From: an uncultured Kiloniellaceae bacterium
GTDB lineage: Bacteria; Pseudomonadota; Alphaproteobacteria; Kiloniellales; Kiloniellaceae
Length of the DNA stretch: 64,000 bases
NCBI GenBank assembly: GCA_947493695.1
Contig: CANLSF010000006.1
Span: forward strand, 186,001 to 250,000
Direction: 5' to 3'
Under the pieces are notes generated by a model that searched no databases, was not told where the DNA came from, and worked only from the letters and a program-made list of their open reading frames with translations. Shown in pieces: positions 38,143 through 45,253 of the stretch (position 1 is its first letter; the number at the start of each line of letters is the position of its first letter). The position numbers and the translations under genes are program-made.

Positions 38143-38438
38143 CTCTTCGCTCCATTCTCATAAACCTCATCCCGGCCTCGCCCTTACCCCACCCCAGCCG
38201 GGGTGAGGCGGCGGGCCCGCTACGGCCATACCCTCCGTACCGGGTCCGCCACTTCATTATCCTGGAAGGAGAAAGAAGCCCCTGCAGCCCTTTTGTTCAG
38301 GCACCTTGACTGCTGTAACGAAACCCTCAAATCTGAAGCACAAGAGACAGAGTGCAGCGCGACAGTGCCCAGCGTCCGCGCAATCCTGAATGCCAGGAAC
38401 GGCGACATCGTGAACCAGACCGCGAGAGTTTTAGAAGT

Positions 38439-39116
38439 ATGCGCATTTTGATTATCGAAGATGATACCGATACGGCCGCATACGTCTCGAAGGGCCTCTG
38501 CGAGAACGGTTACCGGGTTGACGTTGCAAATAACGGCAGAGAAGGCCTGGTGCAGGCCATTGGCGAAGACTACGATCTGGCGATTGTCGATCGTATGCTC
38601 CCGGAACTGGACGGCCTCTCGATTGTTGAAACCCTGCGCAAGGCGGATAGAGACACACCCATAATCTTTTTGAGCGCTCTGGGCGGCGTCAACGACAGGG
38701 TCAAGGGATTACGCAGCGGCGGCGACGATTATCTTGTTAAGCCCTTCGCGTTTTCGGAGCTCTTGGCTCGTGTTGAAGCTTTGTTGCGGCGTCCCGCAAC
38801 CCGGGTTGTCGAGACCAACCTACGGGTTGCCGATCTGGAGATGGATTTACTGGCACGGCAGGTGATACGCGCCGGACAGACGATAGAATTGCAACCCCGC
38901 GAGTTCAGACTGCTTGAGTATCTCATGCGCAACGCAGGGCGGGTCGTCACCCGGACCATGTTGCTTGAAAACGTGTGGGACTATCACTTCGACCCACAGA
39001 CCAACGTGATTGACGTTCACATCAGCCGTCTGCGGCAGAAGATCGACAAGGACTTTGAACAGACTCTCCTCCATACGGTCCGTGGTGCCGGTTATTCCCT
39101 GCGTGAGCCGGGTTGA
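38439..39116 (+). CDS. OmpR/PhoB-family response regulator (ORF opens at 38352; ATG at 38439 preferred)
   Basis: MRILIIEDDTDTAAYVSKGLCENGYRVDVANNGREGL; winged helix RVVTRTMLLENVWDYHFDPQTNVIDVHISRLRQKID. Confidence 0.95.
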   Translation: MRILIIEDDTDTAAYVSKGLCENGYRVDVANNGREGLVQAIGEDYDLAIVDRMLPELDGLSIVETLRKADRDTPIIFLSALGGVNDRVKGLRSGGDDYLVKPFAFSELLARVEALLRRPATRVVETNLRVADLEMDLLARQVIRAGQTIELQPREFRLLEYLMRNAGRVVTRTMLLENVWDYHFDPQTNVIDVHISRLRQKIDKDFEQTLLHTVRGAGYSLREPG

Positions 39117-40540
39117 GCCCTGTGCCCAGAACCGACTCTTCAGCCACCTTCTATAATCGTCGGCTTTTCCATTCGCGAATCTTTCGCCTTACGGTGATCT
39201 ACCTCTGTCTCTTTACCGCGTCCGTACTGGGTCTTCTGGGGTTCATCTACTGGTCGGCCACAGAGTCCGTCACTCGTCAAATCGACAGTACGATCAATGC
39301 GGAAATCACCGGTCTGGCAGAACAGTTCAATCAACGCGGTCTTATCGGTCTGGTCCAGGCGATCGAACGGCGCGCCGGGAAAGCCGGGACCTCGCGCGGC
39401 CTCTACATCCTGGCCGACGAGTCTTTTGAGCCCATCGCCGGGAACCTCTCCCGCTGGCCCGATGAAGCGCCCGATACAGAGGGTTGGGTTACCTTTCGTC
39501 TCGAGTATCCAGACGATTCCGGCGGCAGCACCAATTTCGGCCGAGCCAGAATCTTCGACCTGGGCCAGCGCTTTCACCTGATGGTCGGCCACGACATTGA
39601 AGAGCGCAGCCGCATCGCAGCCTCCATTCGCGGCACCTTGATCTGGAGTGTTGTCATTGCGATCGGTGTTTCACTCATCGGCGGCATTCTGATGAGCCGC
39701 TCGCTTCTGAGCCAGATCGACACCATCAACGAAACCAGCCGGGAGATCATGGCCGGAGACTTGACCCGTCGGATACCGATTGGGAAACACGGCGACGAAA
39801 TCGACGAGGTGGCGAGCAATCTGAATGCTATGCTCGATCAGATCGAGCGCCTGCTGGCCGGAATGAGCCAGATATCCGACAATATTGCCCATGATTTGCG
39901 CACGCCGATTTCCAGGCTGCGAACCGGCCTCGAATCCGCCCTGATAGGGCGGGCCGATCCCGAGGATTACCGTGATGCCATCAGCGGTGCCATCGAGGAG
40001 GCCGATAACATCCTCAAGACCTTCAACGCCCTGCTCAGCATCGCTCAGGCGGAAGCCGGGGCAACTGAAGCTCAGTTCGAGTATGTGGACCTGAAAGCCC
40101 TGCTCCGCGATGTTGGGGAACTGTACGAACCCCTGGCGGATGAACAGGGTATTCAGCTCAAACTCGAACTCGGCGCAAACAGCTCATTGAAGGGCGACCG
40201 TAACCTGCTGTTTCAGGCGGTCGCCAACCTGACGGACAATGCCCTGAAGTTCTCGACAACGGATTCCTGCGTGACGCTTACTCTCAGAGATGAGGTACAG
40301 GACGAGGGAATTTCACAACACGCAGAAATCATCGTCACCGATCAGGGGCCGGGTATTCCAGCGGGTGACCGGGACCGGGTTCTCGAACGATTCCACCGCC
40401 TGGAAGCCAGTCGCAGCACACCGGGCAACGGCCTGGGACTCAGTCTGGTATCCGCTGTCGCAAAACTGCACGGCGGCGCGTTGCGCCTGGAAGACAATGC
40501 CCCCGGATTACGCGCAACTCTGTCTCTTCCTTTTTCATAG
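39113..40540 (+). CDS. Sensor histidine kinase (HAMP + HisKA + HATPase)
   Basis: HDLRTPISRLRTGLESAL; NLTDNALKFSTTDSCVTL; IIVTDQGPGIPAGDRDRVLERFHRLEASRSTPGNGLGLSLV; overlaps the response regulator by 4 nt. Confidence 0.95.
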   Translation: MSPVPRTDSSATFYNRRLFHSRIFRLTVIYLCLFTASVLGLLGFIYWSATESVTRQIDSTINAEITGLAEQFNQRGLIGLVQAIERRAGKAGTSRGLYILADESFEPIAGNLSRWPDEAPDTEGWVTFRLEYPDDSGGSTNFGRARIFDLGQRFHLMVGHDIEERSRIAASIRGTLIWSVVIAIGVSLIGGILMSRSLLSQIDTINETSREIMAGDLTRRIPIGKHGDEIDEVASNLNAMLDQIERLLAGMSQISDNIAHDLRTPISRLRTGLESALIGRADPEDYRDAISGAIEEADNILKTFNALLSIAQAEAGATEAQFEYVDLKALLRDVGELYEPLADEQGIQLKLELGANSSLKGDRNLLFQAVANLTDNALKFSTTDSCVTLTLRDEVQDEGISQHAEIIVTDQGPGIPAGDRDRVLERFHRLEASRSTPGNGLGLSLVSAVAKLHGGALRLEDNAPGLRATLSLPFS

Positions 40541-40564: not shown

Positions 40565-41506
40565 CTACCGTTCCGGCCAGGCATGGCGCTGCGCCAGCCG
40601 GGTCATGATATCCAGTACAGGCGAGTGCCGTCTGCCGGCGACGGTCACCAGGGAAATGGTACGCGCGACCTCGGGTTCGCTGACCGGGCGCATCGCAATG
40701 CCCGGCATGACCGGCAAAAATTCGGGCATCACGCTACAGCCCAGCTTGGCCAGAACCATCGCCTGTATCCAGTCCTCTCGCTCGGACGAGTAACGCACGT
40801 TTACCTCGTGCTCCTTCTTGCCGCCCAGAGCCGCGAAGTGATCGGAGAACTCGCAATGAACGCGGACCAGATAGTCTTCCTGATCGAGTTCTTTCAAGGG
40901 AACGGCGTTCATCTGCTCGAAGCGATGCCCCTTGCCGAACGCAATCGTATAGCGTTCGGAATACAGTGGCAGAGCACGCAGACGCTCCGGAAGCTCCGGT
41001 AAACCAATCAACCCGATATCGATCTCCCCTTCGATCAGGGCGTCAACAAGTGCCTGGCCCGAGGCCTCACGGATATTCAGATCCAGCGAGGGCACCTCTG
41101 ATCTCAGTTGACTGATAAAGCCGATCATCTGTGACGGTCCGATGGTGGACATGACGCCGAGGTTAACCGTTGTCTTTTCGTTCAGTTTGAAAACGTCCGC
41201 ATCGGCTTTGGCCGCCGTGGTCGCAGCAAAAATTGTCGAGAGGTGCGGTTTCATCAACTGCCCGAGATCGGTCAGTTGAGTCTGATTCCGCTCCCGGCGG
41301 AAGAGTTCGCCCCCCAGTTCCTCCTCCAGTTTCTTGATCGCCTTGGTTAAAGAGGGTTGCGCGACCCGGCAGGCCTCCGCCGCACGCGTGAAGTTCTGTG
41401 TCTCGCAAATCGCGAGGAAATAACGGACTTGATGCATTTCCATAGCCAAAACCTCACGAAAACCGGTGCGCGCCTCACAGGATCGTGAAATTTTGTGCGA
41501 TTTCAA
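40565..41506 (-). CDS. LysR-family regulator, divergent from the cupredoxin-like/MerA-like/VTT locus (real start probably the internal MEMHQVRYFLA)
   Basis: MEMHQVRYFLAICETQNFTRAAEACRVAQPSLTKAIKKLEEELGGELFRRERNQTQLTDLG. Confidence 0.95.
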   Translation of the reverse strand: MKSHKISRSCEARTGFREVLAMEMHQVRYFLAICETQNFTRAAEACRVAQPSLTKAIKKLEEELGGELFRRERNQTQLTDLGQLMKPHLSTIFAATTAAKADADVFKLNEKTTVNLGVMSTIGPSQMIGFISQLRSEVPSLDLNIREASGQALVDALIEGEIDIGLIGLPELPERLRALPLYSERYTIAFGKGHRFEQMNAVPLKELDQEDYLVRVHCEFSDHFAALGGKKEHEVNVRYSSEREDWIQAMVLAKLGCSVMPEFLPVMPGIAMRPVSEPEVARTISLVTVAGRRHSPVLDIMTRLAQRHAWPER

Positions 41507-41523
41507 GGCGTTTTATAGCCGCC

Positions 41524-41542
41524 AGCTATCAATCATATAGCT
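41524..41542. promoter_or_regulatory. Candidate LysR-type operator, AGCTAT-N7-ATAGCT
   Basis: Perfect dyad agctat caatcat atagct between the divergent genes. Confidence 0.6.
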
Positions 41543-41648
41543 GAACAGTATTTCAAACCGCGCCTGCCGGGCCCCATCTCAGTTCTGTCACTGAACGACA
41601 GCCTGAAAACAACCTCCGCCGGACGCGGAGCAAACGGAGACTGAGACG

Positions 41649-42119
41649 ATGTCTAAGAGCCTTTATGCAAGTTCCCTTCTCGCAGCCGGTATGTTGGCGG
41701 CAGCTTTCGCTGCGCCCGTACAGGCCGCCGATGAGCCCCAGATCATCGAGCTGACGCAGACAGCCTGTCAGTTCGTGGAGATTGAAGGCAAGGACCACGG
41801 CTATACCTCCACCAAAAAAGCCGATTGCAATGAGATTAACGACAAGACCGGTGCCGAACGTATCGCCAATTCCGAAGTCCTGAAGCTCAAGCCCGGCAAA
41901 TACATCTTCCGGGTCAAGAACGAGAACGTCCCCTACGCGCTGGGTTTCTGGGTACGCGGCGATGGGCTGCTCAATCGGGCCAGCCTGCCGAGCGTTTCGG
42001 GTGGCGGCCTGACCCAGGGCACCACCAAGGACTACGAGATCACTCTGGAGGCCGGCGAGTACGTCTTCTCCTGCCCTCTAAATCCCACACCTGACTACAA
42101 GCTGGTTGTCGAGGGCTGA
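41649..42119 (+). CDS. Secreted cupredoxin-like protein of unknown function
   Basis: Signal peptide MSKSLYASSLLAAGMLAAAFAAPVQA; beta-rich domain ending TLEAGEYVFSCPLNPTPDYKLVVEG. Confidence 0.65.
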   Translation: MSKSLYASSLLAAGMLAAAFAAPVQAADEPQIIELTQTACQFVEIEGKDHGYTSTKKADCNEINDKTGAERIANSEVLKLKPGKYIFRVKNENVPYALGFWVRGDGLLNRASLPSVSGGGLTQGTTKDYEITLEAGEYVFSCPLNPTPDYKLVVEG

Positions 42120-42172
42120 GCCCCGCGCCCTGAACCAACCGCGCAAAACGCATCGAGTGAGGAGACACAAGA

Positions 42173-43603
42173 ATGTCCAAGAAACAGGTCATCAAAGCCG
42201 ACATCGCCATCATTGGCGCAGGGTCGAGCGGATTGAGCGTCGCAGCCGGCGCAGCCCAGATGGGCGCGAAAGTCGTCCTGATCGAAAAAGGTAAAATGGG
42301 CGGCGACTGCCTGAACTATGGCTGTGTCCCCTCCAAGGCCATGATTGCTGCGGGCGAAGCCGCTGAGATGGTTCGCACCTCCGGCAAGTTTGGCGTCAAC
42401 GGTCATGAGCCCGCGATCGACTTCGCAAAGGTCAACGCGCACGTCCATGACGTCATTGCCGGTATCGCACCCCATGACTCGGTCGAACGCTTCGAAAGCC
42501 TGGGCGTTCAGGTTATTCAGGCCGCTGGCCGCTTCATAAGCAAGAACGAGATCGAAGCCGGAGACTACGTCGTAAAGGCCCGCCGCTTTGTCGTCTCGAC
42601 CGGCTCTTCGGCCTTCGTGCCGCCGATCCCCGGTCTCGACCAAGTGCCTTATCTGACCAACGAGACCGTCTTCAACCTGACCGACCGTCCGGCGCACCTG
42701 ATCATCGTAGGTGGTGGTCCCATCGGCATTGAAATGGCGCAGGCCCATCGACGTCTCGGCGCCAAGGTCACGGTCATCGAAGGCCTCTCGATCATGGGCA
42801 ATGACGACCCAGAGGCCGTAGAGGTTGTCCGCCAGCGTCTGATCGCAGAAGGCATCGACATTCGCGAGCAGGCGAAGGTCGAGAGCGTCATCCCGGAGGG
42901 TAACGGCGTCTCGGTTCTGGTCAGTCACGAAGGCAAGAGTGAGCGTGTGGACGGTTCACACCTCCTCCTTGCTGTCGGGCGCCGGGCCAACGTCGCCAAC
43001 CTGGGTCTGGAAGAGGCGGATATCGATTACTCACCTCGCGGTATCGAGGTCGACAAACGCCTTCGGACTTCAAACAAGCGCGTCTTCGCAATTGGCGACG
43101 TGGCAGGCAGCTATCAGTTCACCCACGTTGCCGGGTACCACGCCGGGATCGTGATCCGGAACGCCATGTTCAATCTGCCGTCAAAGGTCGACGTGAAAGC
43201 GGTTCCCTGGGTGACCTACACCGATCCCGAGCTGGCGCATGTCGGTCTCAGCGAAGCCGCCGCCAAGGAACAGGGCCTGGAGTTCAAAGCCGTCAGCTTC
43301 GGCTTCGACGGCAACGACCGGGCAAGGGCCGAGCGTGCAACGGAAGGCTTCATCAAGGCCGTGATCGGCAAGAAGGGTAAGATCCTGGGAGCGACCATTG
43401 TCGGCCGACACGCCGGTGAATTGATCCTGCCCTGGGTCCTGGCCGTCCAGAAGGGCCTGAAGGCCTCCGACATGGCCGGGATCATCGCACCCTACCCGAC
43501 GCTCGGCGAAGTCTCCAAACGTGTCGCAGGCGCCTATTACACGCCTGCCCTCTTCTCTGACCGCACCAAGAGCGTGGTCGGCCTCATGCAGCACCTGCCG
43601 TAA
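42173..43603 (+). CDS. MerA/dihydrolipoamide dehydrogenase-like flavin disulfide oxidoreductase
   Basis: ADIAIIGAGSSGLSVAAGAAQMGAKVVLIEKGKMGGDCLNYGCVPSKAMI; FAIGDVAGSYQFTHVAGYHAG; no N-terminal HMA domain and no C-terminal Cys pair. Confidence 0.9.
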   Translation: MSKKQVIKADIAIIGAGSSGLSVAAGAAQMGAKVVLIEKGKMGGDCLNYGCVPSKAMIAAGEAAEMVRTSGKFGVNGHEPAIDFAKVNAHVHDVIAGIAPHDSVERFESLGVQVIQAAGRFISKNEIEAGDYVVKARRFVVSTGSSAFVPPIPGLDQVPYLTNETVFNLTDRPAHLIIVGGGPIGIEMAQAHRRLGAKVTVIEGLSIMGNDDPEAVEVVRQRLIAEGIDIREQAKVESVIPEGNGVSVLVSHEGKSERVDGSHLLLAVGRRANVANLGLEEADIDYSPRGIEVDKRLRTSNKRVFAIGDVAGSYQFTHVAGYHAGIVIRNAMFNLPSKVDVKAVPWVTYTDPELAHVGLSEAAAKEQGLEFKAVSFGFDGNDRARAERATEGFIKAVIGKKGKILGATIVGRHAGELILPWVLAVQKGLKASDMAGIIAPYPTLGEVSKRVAGAYYTPALFSDRTKSVVGLMQHLP

Positions 43604-43646
43604 CGCTCTGGCGCTGAGGTTCTCCAAAAAGTAAGGAACGAAAAAG

Positions 43647-44387
43647 ATGAGTACGACCACCGTCAATCAGCCGCCCCGCGGCTTCGGACAGAAAGCGAAG
43701 CGATTTGCACCGATTGCCGTAATTGCGGCGGCCATCGCGGGCGCCTTCGCACTGGGTGTCGATGATTATCTGAGCTTCGATGCACTGCGCGAGAACCGCG
43801 AAGTCCTGATGAACTTCACCCAGAGCAATGTTGTTGCAGCTGCGGCCCTCTTCATTGCCGCCTATGCCCTGACAACGGCTCTCTCACTTCCCGGCGGGGC
43901 GGTCTTGAGCATAGCCGGCGGATTCCTCTTCGGCAGCATCTTCGGTACGGCCTGGGTCGTGCTGGGCGCCACCATCGGCGCCGTCGGCATCTTTCTTGCC
44001 GCCCGTACGGCCCTTGGTGACTTCCTGAAAGCCAAGGCCGGCCCCTGGTTGAAAAAGATGGAAGCCGGCTTCCAGGATAATGCCTTCAGCTACCTGCTGG
44101 TCCTGCGCCTGGTACCGCTCTTCCCCTTCGTCGTGGTGAACCTGGTTCCCGCATTCCTGGGCGTAAAGCTTCGGACCTTCGCTCTGGCAACCTTTATCGG
44201 TATTATTCCGGGCTCCTTCGTCTTCGCCTCCATCGGCGCAGGTTTAGGCAGCGTCTTCGACCGCGGCGACAGCTTCTCGCCTGCCAATGCCCTGACCCCG
44301 GAAATCATCGTGGCGCTGGTCGGTTTATCCGTCCTTTCGATCATCCCCGTGGCCTACAAGAAGATCAAGGCGCGCAGGACCGCCTGA
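43647..44387 (+). CDS. TVP38/TMEM64 (VTT/DedA-like) family membrane protein
   Basis: YALTTALSLPGGAVLSIAGGFLFGSIFGTAWVVLGATIGAVGIFLAARTALGDFL; FSYLLVLRLVPLFPFVVVNLVPAFLGVKLRTFALATFIGIIPGSFVFASIGAGLG. Confidence 0.94.
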   Translation: MSTTTVNQPPRGFGQKAKRFAPIAVIAAAIAGAFALGVDDYLSFDALRENREVLMNFTQSNVVAAAALFIAAYALTTALSLPGGAVLSIAGGFLFGSIFGTAWVVLGATIGAVGIFLAARTALGDFLKAKAGPWLKKMEAGFQDNAFSYLLVLRLVPLFPFVVVNLVPAFLGVKLRTFALATFIGIIPGSFVFASIGAGLGSVFDRGDSFSPANALTPEIIVALVGLSVLSIIPVAYKKIKARRTA

Positions 44388-44427
44388 CACCCTGCCGGGT
44401 CTGAGTTGATTAAAGCTTGGCTTTGCA

Positions 44428-44466
44428 GAGCTCCGCCATAGATCCTGTGGCGGAGCTCTTTCTATT
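44428..44466 (+). terminator. Intrinsic terminator after the VTT gene
   Basis: gagctccgcca-tagatcctg-tggcggagctc followed by ttctattt; lies inside the longer SDR ORF and argues for the later SDR start. Confidence 0.8.
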
Positions 44467-44503: not shown

Positions 44504-45253
44504 ATGGTTAAATTGGCGTCTTTTGGGGCTGGATTGAACGTAGCGGTCGTCGGCGCCTCCGGCGGCATCGGCAGTGCTGTGCTCACAGCATTGCAGGATC
44601 ACCCGAACGTCGAACGGATTTTTGCGTTTTCACGCAAGGGCACGACGGAGCTGTCTGCGCCCAAAATCATCCCGGCGAGGCTTGATCTCGTTCAGGAAGA
44701 CTCCATTCAGGCCGCCGCAAATCATATTGCCGAGTATGGCCCCTTGCATCTGGCGTTCGTCGCAACCGGCATGCTGCATCAAAGCAATGAGGTACAGCCT
44801 GAAAAGACCTGGGGCGCTATCACTCCCGACGCGATGGAGCTCGCTTTCAGGATCAACAGCATGGGTCCAGCTCTCGTGGCCAAGCACTTTCTTCCCCTGC
44901 TCGCGAAGGACCGGAAGTCTGTCTTTGCCGCTCTTTCGGCGCGCGTCGGCAGTATCTCGGACAACCACCTGGGCGGCTGGTACAGTTATCGCGCTTCAAA
45001 GGCGGCTCTGAACATGTTTCTCAAAAGCTTTGCGATAGAGCTCTCCCGGCGGAATGCTACGGCCCTGTGCGTCGGACTGCACCCGGGGACAGTGGACACC
45101 TCTCTCTCGGAACCTTTTCAACGCGGGGTGCCCGAAGGAAAGCTGTTCACGCCCGCCATATCTGCCAATCATCTGCTCGAGGTAATCGATGGTCTGACGG
45201 CAGAAGACAGTGGCAAGATATTCGCCTGGGATGGCGCTGAGATTCCGGGTTAA
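44504..45253 (+). CDS. Short-chain dehydrogenase/reductase (C-factor/CsgA-like); ORF opens at 44417, ATG at 44504 preferred
   Basis: NVAVVGASGGIGSAVLTALQDHPNVERIFAFSR; YSYRASKAALNMFLKSFAIEL; VGLHPGTVDTSLSEPF. Confidence 0.9.
   Translation: MVKLASFGAGLNVAVVGASGGIGSAVLTALQDHPNVERIFAFSRKGTTELSAPKIIPARLDLVQEDSIQAAANHIAEYGPLHLAFVATGMLHQSNEVQPEKTWGAITPDAMELAFRINSMGPALVAKHFLPLLAKDRKSVFAALSARVGSISDNHLGGWYSYRASKAALNMFLKSFAIELSRRNATALCVGLHPGTVDTSLSEPFQRGVPEGKLFTPAISANHLLEVIDGLTAEDSGKIFAWDGAEIPG

Follow-up and report, generated by a model that had tools for sequence, protein, structure and literature searches.

Within a 64,000-nucleotide stretch of contig CANLSF010000006.1 (hereafter, the window), we examined a locus in which a LysR-type regulator gene on the minus strand is divergent from three genes on the plus strand. 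These encode an exported cupredoxin-like protein (CUP), a flavin disulfide oxidoreductase (FDR), and a DedA/VTT family membrane protein (VTT), and a predicted OxyR-type operator lies between the regulator and CUP genes (Table 1). The host genome, of 6.46 Mb, belongs to a Kiloniellaceae-like alphaproteobacterium whose closest named relatives are Denitrobaculum and Pelagibius. On the basis of the computed gene set and its conservation, the operator, the regulator class, the folds and conserved residues of the products, and the recurrence of the regulator and operator beside bufferin operons, we tentatively read the trio as an envelope stress operon that answers to oxidants or soft, copper-like metals under the control of an OxyR-like LysR protein.

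Table 1. Features of the cup-fdr-vtt locus, with positions numbered in the window
Feature	Position	Strand	Description
LysR-type regulator	40565..41443	-	292 aa from conserved ATG; OxyR-like
OxyR-type operator (predicted)	41515..41551	+	15/16 consensus bases; LysR-CUP intergenic region
CUP	41649..42119	+	156 aa; signal peptide ~1-26; cupredoxin fold of EfeO N-domain type
FDR	42173..43603	+	476 aa; flavin-dependent pyridine nucleotide-disulfide oxidoreductase; C46-x4-C51; Tyr441
VTT	43647..44387	+	246 aa; DedA/VTT family membrane protein (PF09335)
Intrinsic terminator	44427..44459	+	15-pair stem (9 G-C), then T-rich tail

The three co-directional genes lie where a preliminary description of this DNA had placed them, with intergenic gaps of 53 bp (CUP to FDR) and 43 bp (FDR to VTT), and the strong terminator that it had noted does close the set. 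The divergent LysR gene was likewise confirmed, with a corrected start. Because conservation of the encoded protein across 15 loci begins at MEMHQ, translation most likely begins at the ATG at 41443 (MEMHQVRYFLA) rather than at the TTG at 41506, and the gap between the LysR and CUP genes would therefore be ≈205 bp. Downstream, the terminator is overlapped by a 278-aa open reading frame with a TTG start at 44417; for the SDR gene located there, the ATG at 44504 is the likelier start, and this gene, placed beyond the terminator, is a separate unit. On the other side, a response regulator/histidine kinase pair (window positions 38352-40540) ends 25 bp from the LysR gene and is found in the same position in three congeneric relatives (L039-L041).

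The arrangement is not due to chance, since it is seen again in many genomes and in several gene orders. We compared locus neighbors by tblastn and examined the 80 best CUP loci of the genome contigs collection, 27 of which have FDR and/or VTT adjoining CUP. A family of small genomes from another class has VTT adjacent in 23 of 29 CUP loci, mostly in the order CUP-VTT-FDR, and in Azoarcus a fused VTT-FDR gene lies next to CUP. The three genes thus co-occur beyond close relatives, as the preliminary description required of a genuine system. In a phylogenetic tree of FDR, the CUP-linked enzymes, including those of the second class, form one group that also holds three members without CUP, and the divergent Azoarcus fusion falls outside it. 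From these sequence relationships, the simplest reading is that the trio had one origin, passed between classes, and was lost in some lineages. A plasmid-borne resistance island was considered and rejected: the plasmid collection contained no match to CUP and none to FDR at E = 1e-120 or better.

Among proteins of solved structure, the best relative of the LysR protein is OxyR from Pseudomonas aeruginosa (E = 4e-24). An invariant cysteine, set in an R-x-[HN]-C-E-F motif in 15 orthologs, aligns with the peroxidatic cysteine of Corynebacterium glutamicum OxyR, and another invariant cysteine is found further on, in an LGC motif. The protein therefore resembles OxyR-type regulators in its nearest solved relatives, in the four-box geometry of its operator, and in having a cysteine at the peroxidatic place, but it differs from them in carrying one of the two redox cysteines, the second being absent from its sequence, and in scoring 110.6 bits against the NCBIfam OxyR model, far under the cut-off of 329. 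It is not a canonical OxyR on either count.

The operator reads ATAG-N7-CTAT-N7-ATAG-N7-GTAT, one base away from the OxyR four-box consensus ATAG-N7-CTAT-N7-ATAG-N7-CTAT. When 3000 dinucleotide shuffles were scanned on both strands, the maximum score was 12. Another 15 loci with a divergent LysR gene carry operator-like sites scoring 11 to 15 in the equivalent position, close relatives among them not being independent. A genome-wide scan identified the site in the window as the only full operator match in its own genome, together with three sites with two mismatches, which is the level of the reversed-pattern control; with no second full match, no wider regulon is readable from the scan. Two related loci vary this layout: in one, with a 14/16 operator (L274:7045-7081), a small exported protein takes the place of CUP opposite a LysR protein 62% identical to ours, and in the other (L275) a LysR protein (59%) is accompanied by two 14/16 operators.

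Homologs of the regulator also occur in a second setting. In Azospirillum brasilense, a LysR homolog with 57.8% identity is divergent from a DUF2282-DUF692-DNA-binding-domain gene-DoxX string, which is the layout of an operon for bufferin, a copper-chelating ribosomally synthesized and post-translationally modified peptide (RiPP). A 14/16 operator lies between the two, in the same orientation toward the operon, and the next best operator-like site in that 10.9-kb locus reaches 9/16. LysR homologs of 42 to 49% identity are also encoded within a few kb of a DUF2282 gene in two Rhizobium species and in the relatives G031 and G004. Bufferins chelate excess copper (PMC12452194), and induction of bufferin clusters by copper, gold, or oxidative stress is common (PMC13097082). 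The recurrence of the LysR protein and its operator beside bufferin operons makes copper-like or oxidant stress our best guess at the signal for the trio. The trio is not itself a bufferin operon, as neither a DUF2282 precursor nor a DUF692 enzyme is present at its locus. The two share a homologous LysR protein and, in A. brasilense, the same operator, as well as a periplasmic, cysteine-bearing product and a membrane protein; the trio differs in having no RiPP precursor or MNIO enzyme, and nothing marks CUP as a modified peptide precursor. In Skermanella, a 41% LysR homolog has as neighbors a gene for a peroxiredoxin-like protein and one for an FAD-containing oxidoreductase that is 34% identical to FDR. 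Two overlapping operator-like sites (13/16, one per strand; L211:9814-9864) are flanked there by a cupin-MFS-FAD oxidoreductase-peroxiredoxin string on one side and a gene for 3-hydroxybutyrate dehydrogenase on the other.

VTT belongs to PF09335 (77.6 bits; cut-off 33.9), and its pairing with a flavin reductase is already on record. An mBio 2023 study names reductases of PF07992/PF02852 as the most frequent fusion partners of COG0398 DedA proteins, which are proposed to be phospholipid scramblases tied to aerobic metabolism (PMC10127716). The same two partners are neighboring genes here, and it is their fusion that adjoins CUP in Azoarcus. FDR relatives are present in 55 of the 60 genomes searched within this order, and VTT adjoins FDR in 18 of 21 examined FDR loci without CUP; the FDR-VTT pair, which occurs almost throughout the order without CUP, is thus the older core. 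To this pair the locus adds an exported partner of cupredoxin fold and a dedicated LysR regulator with its operator, neither of which we found in the passages of that study or in the other literature searched. Literature searches for the CUP-FDR-VTT combination as a whole returned no description of it. Given the proposed scramblase activity, the commonness of the fusion, and the near-universality of the pair, the trio might instead serve membrane-lipid maintenance, with VTT as the scramblase, FDR reducing a lipid-linked or quinone substrate, and CUP a merely co-regulated stress protein. We consider this rather unlikely, as it leaves unexplained both the tight linkage of CUP in two classes and the clade of CUP-associated FDRs.

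By sequence, CUP matches the cupredoxin family PF13473 weakly (18.5 bits, below the cut-off of 27); 49 of 64 CUP members touch this family, also weakly, and a sequence search of solved structures with CUP gave no match. The AlphaFold model is confident (pLDDT ≈95-98 from residue 31 on, ≈96 over residues 31-156), and a Foldseek search with it placed the N-domain of EfeO first (7wgu, E = 1.6e-5) and classical cupredoxins next, among them azurin, amicyanin, and N2O reductase cupredoxin domains, at modest TM-scores (0.3-0.5). Profile comparison by hhalign likewise matched EfeO (E = 2.9e-6, 88%) over azurin (E = 0.15, 0.4%). Despite the weak sequence match, the model thus supports a cupredoxin fold for CUP. 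A search of viral folds, made with a viral origin in mind, gave only weak, scattered beta-sandwich matches, and that origin was set aside.

The term "cupredoxin-like" in the preliminary description is therefore apt for the predicted fold, but not in the sense of a copper electron carrier. Across 111 CUP homologs, C60, C142, Y96, N145, and Y150 are conserved in all and C40 in 110, whereas no histidine or methionine ligand is conserved, so that the type-1 His-Cys-His(-Met) set is absent. The plastocyanin-type loop C-x2-H-x4-M is replaced by C-x2-N-x4-Y, and a type-1 copper site is therefore not conserved; ligand conservation rules out a type-1 copper electron carrier. C142 aligns with Cys103 of EfeO in the profile comparison, and C40, read from the sequences, stands at the place of EfeO Cys41; EfeO reportedly uses these two cysteines for metal (Rajasekaran 2010). 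CUP thus represents a previously undescribed family of free-standing EfeO-type cupredoxins that is strongly conserved and keeps three cysteines fixed. The N-terminal cupredoxin of EfeO (Cup-I of the EfeUOB iron transport system) is its closest solved fold, with a cysteine before strand 2 and a C-terminal [ST]-C motif at the same places. Unlike EfeO, CUP ends after the cupredoxin domain, lacks the M75 domain, and carries an extra helix (residues 57-74) that bears C60.

This likeness raises metal uptake in the manner of EfeUOB or FtrABCD as an alternative, in which CUP would present iron (or copper), VTT would be the permease, and FDR would be a cytosolic metal reductase. The EfeO N-domain is nearest to the CUP fold, and the cupredoxins of EfeO and FtrB serve iron uptake (PMC9174327, PMC11966278). 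CUP has no M75 domain, however, and no Ftr1/EfeU permease or EfeB gene was found among the neighboring open reading frames examined. In addition, VTT proteins are described as lipid scramblases or flippases and not as metal permeases, and relatives of the regulator have copper-chelating bufferin genes, not iron genes, as neighbors. Metal uptake is accordingly a doubtful explanation.

CUP genes outside the trio stand alone or beside msrB-msrA, YeeE-type sulfur transporters, SoxA/TsdA-like cytochromes, multiheme cytochromes, DUF302, or a YceI-cytochrome c gene. A string msrB-msrA-cup in one direction is found in a Comamonadaceae metagenome-assembled genome and in Methylotenera (L092:4797-6426, L134:4707-6402), and msrA-cup in an alphaproteobacterium (L091); we count these strings from other lineages in support of the oxidant/soft-metal reading. 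CUP lies directly beside a YeeE/YedE-type sulfur transporter gene in four loci (L105, L106, L111, and L114), and L106 continues with a fused VTT-FDR gene. One locus carries a tandem pair of CUP genes (L130:5250-6480). The genome under study encodes a second CUP, 62% identical, on the minus strand (L051:6232-6789, C1:54234-54671), flanked by genes for a HemN-like radical SAM protein and a YceI-cytochrome c fusion; the same surroundings recur in three other genus members, and neither FDR nor VTT is present there.

The trio could on these grounds be a sulfur-compound redox unit, in which a CUP cysteine carries or protects sulfane sulfur, VTT passes it, and FDR reduces a persulfide or polysulfide. 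Such a role would fit the beta-, gamma-, and alphaproteobacterial loci in which CUP is beside YeeE/YedE-type transporters (PF04143) and SoxA/TsdA-like cytochrome c, and also DUF302 and FGE-sulfatase-like genes, as well as the Azoarcus row of YeeE, CUP, and fused VTT-FDR. None of these genes is at the locus in the window or in the Kiloniellaceae trio loci examined, however, and both the OxyR-type regulation and the link to bufferins argue for another role. We regard a sulfur role as improbable.

FDR is closest to PRK06370-type "FAD-containing oxidoreductase" models (487 bits; cut-off 620), and it falls under the curated cut-offs for both MerA and Lpd. Its CLNYGC redox pair (C46, C51) had been described correctly, as had the absence of an HMA domain and of a C-terminal cysteine pair, the chain ending in ...SVVGLMQHLP; the CxxxxC motif is invariant in 50 of 50 homologs. 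The C-terminal catalytic histidine of the Lpd/GR His-Glu dyad is missing from FDR. Tyr441 aligns with this histidine of Lpd (1ebd), is a tyrosine in 50 of 50 homologs, and matches the MerA tyrosine. Loss of the Lpd-type catalytic histidine speaks against ordinary disulfide reduction. FDR thus shares with the MerA core the fold, the CxxxxC pair, and a tyrosine in place of the Lpd/GR histidine, but differs in its partner genes and in lacking NmerA and the C-terminal CC. Although its best PDB match by sequence is mercuric reductase (E = 2.7e-77), a true MerA conferring mercury resistance is so improbable, in view of the missing domain and cysteines, a TIGR02053 (MerA) score of 368 bits against 454, Pro183 where Bacillus-type MerA has tyrosine, and the lack of MerR/T/P neighbors, that domain content and curated cut-offs rule it out, as the preliminary description had anticipated. 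A second FDR of the same genome (64% identical; L058:5927-7354, C2) neighbors a TAXI-type solute receptor gene and a GST-like gene, with no CUP and no VTT match nearby.

For the envelope stress operon that we favor, the following scheme can be drawn. In a cell exposed to oxidants or soft metals, the likeliest stress being excess copper or a copper-like or oxidant challenge to thiols, the OxyR-like LysR protein would act on the four-box operator to switch on cup-fdr-vtt. The exported CUP may then bind or buffer metal in the periplasm, or take the oxidative hit there, through its conserved cysteines. VTT and FDR would work as a pair at the inner membrane, with VTT moving a substrate or a lipid across and the cytosolic FDR using NAD(P)H and its cysteine pair to reduce something other than an ordinary disulfide, much as MerA does with a metal ion. 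The signal, the substrate, and the transport step are thus what we infer, as is any physical coupling among the three parts. The preliminary description had suggested an envelope-linked redox or metal pathway; as the role of the trio, this stands as the best reading and is strengthened by the operator and the bufferin link, while a passage of electrons or metal from part to part gained no direct support.

Several observations weigh against this reading. Bufferin genes are one of several kinds of neighbor of the regulator family, which also adjoins genes for patatin, 3-hydroxybutyrate dehydrogenase, cupin, and MFS proteins, and the Rhizobium site upstream of bufA itself scores 11/16. The one DUF2282 match in the genome under study, a bufA-like gene (L248, C5:125878-126018), lies on a contig other than that of the trio and without this LysR gene; no strong operator turned up in the 12 kb around it (best 12/16). 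Pelagibius has CUP, FDR, and VTT without the divergent LysR gene and operator. The FDR-VTT pair, moreover, often occurs where CUP and this regulator are missing, and its basic job may therefore be unrelated to the signal.

A more specific and decidedly speculative proposal, which we think unlikely, is that the VTT-flavoreductase pair is a transport-coupled reduction system, acting on a metal or an oxidized substrate, that in two classes of Pseudomonadota acquired a periplasmic EfeO-type CUP as a protein-based alternative to bufferins. The former copper site of CUP would then have become the fixed Tyr/Cys/Asn/Tyr site, and the stress switch would be of the same type as that of the bufferins. 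The trio assembles known parts around a pair that is itself known but unexplained, and it is not categorically new. COG0398 DedA proteins and their flavoreductase partners are widespread. At the locus described here, the FDR-VTT pair gains a periplasmic partner, a regulator of its own with a predicted operator, and, through that regulator, a connection to copper-chelating bufferin operons, so that the role of the DedA/flavoreductase pair becomes directly testable.

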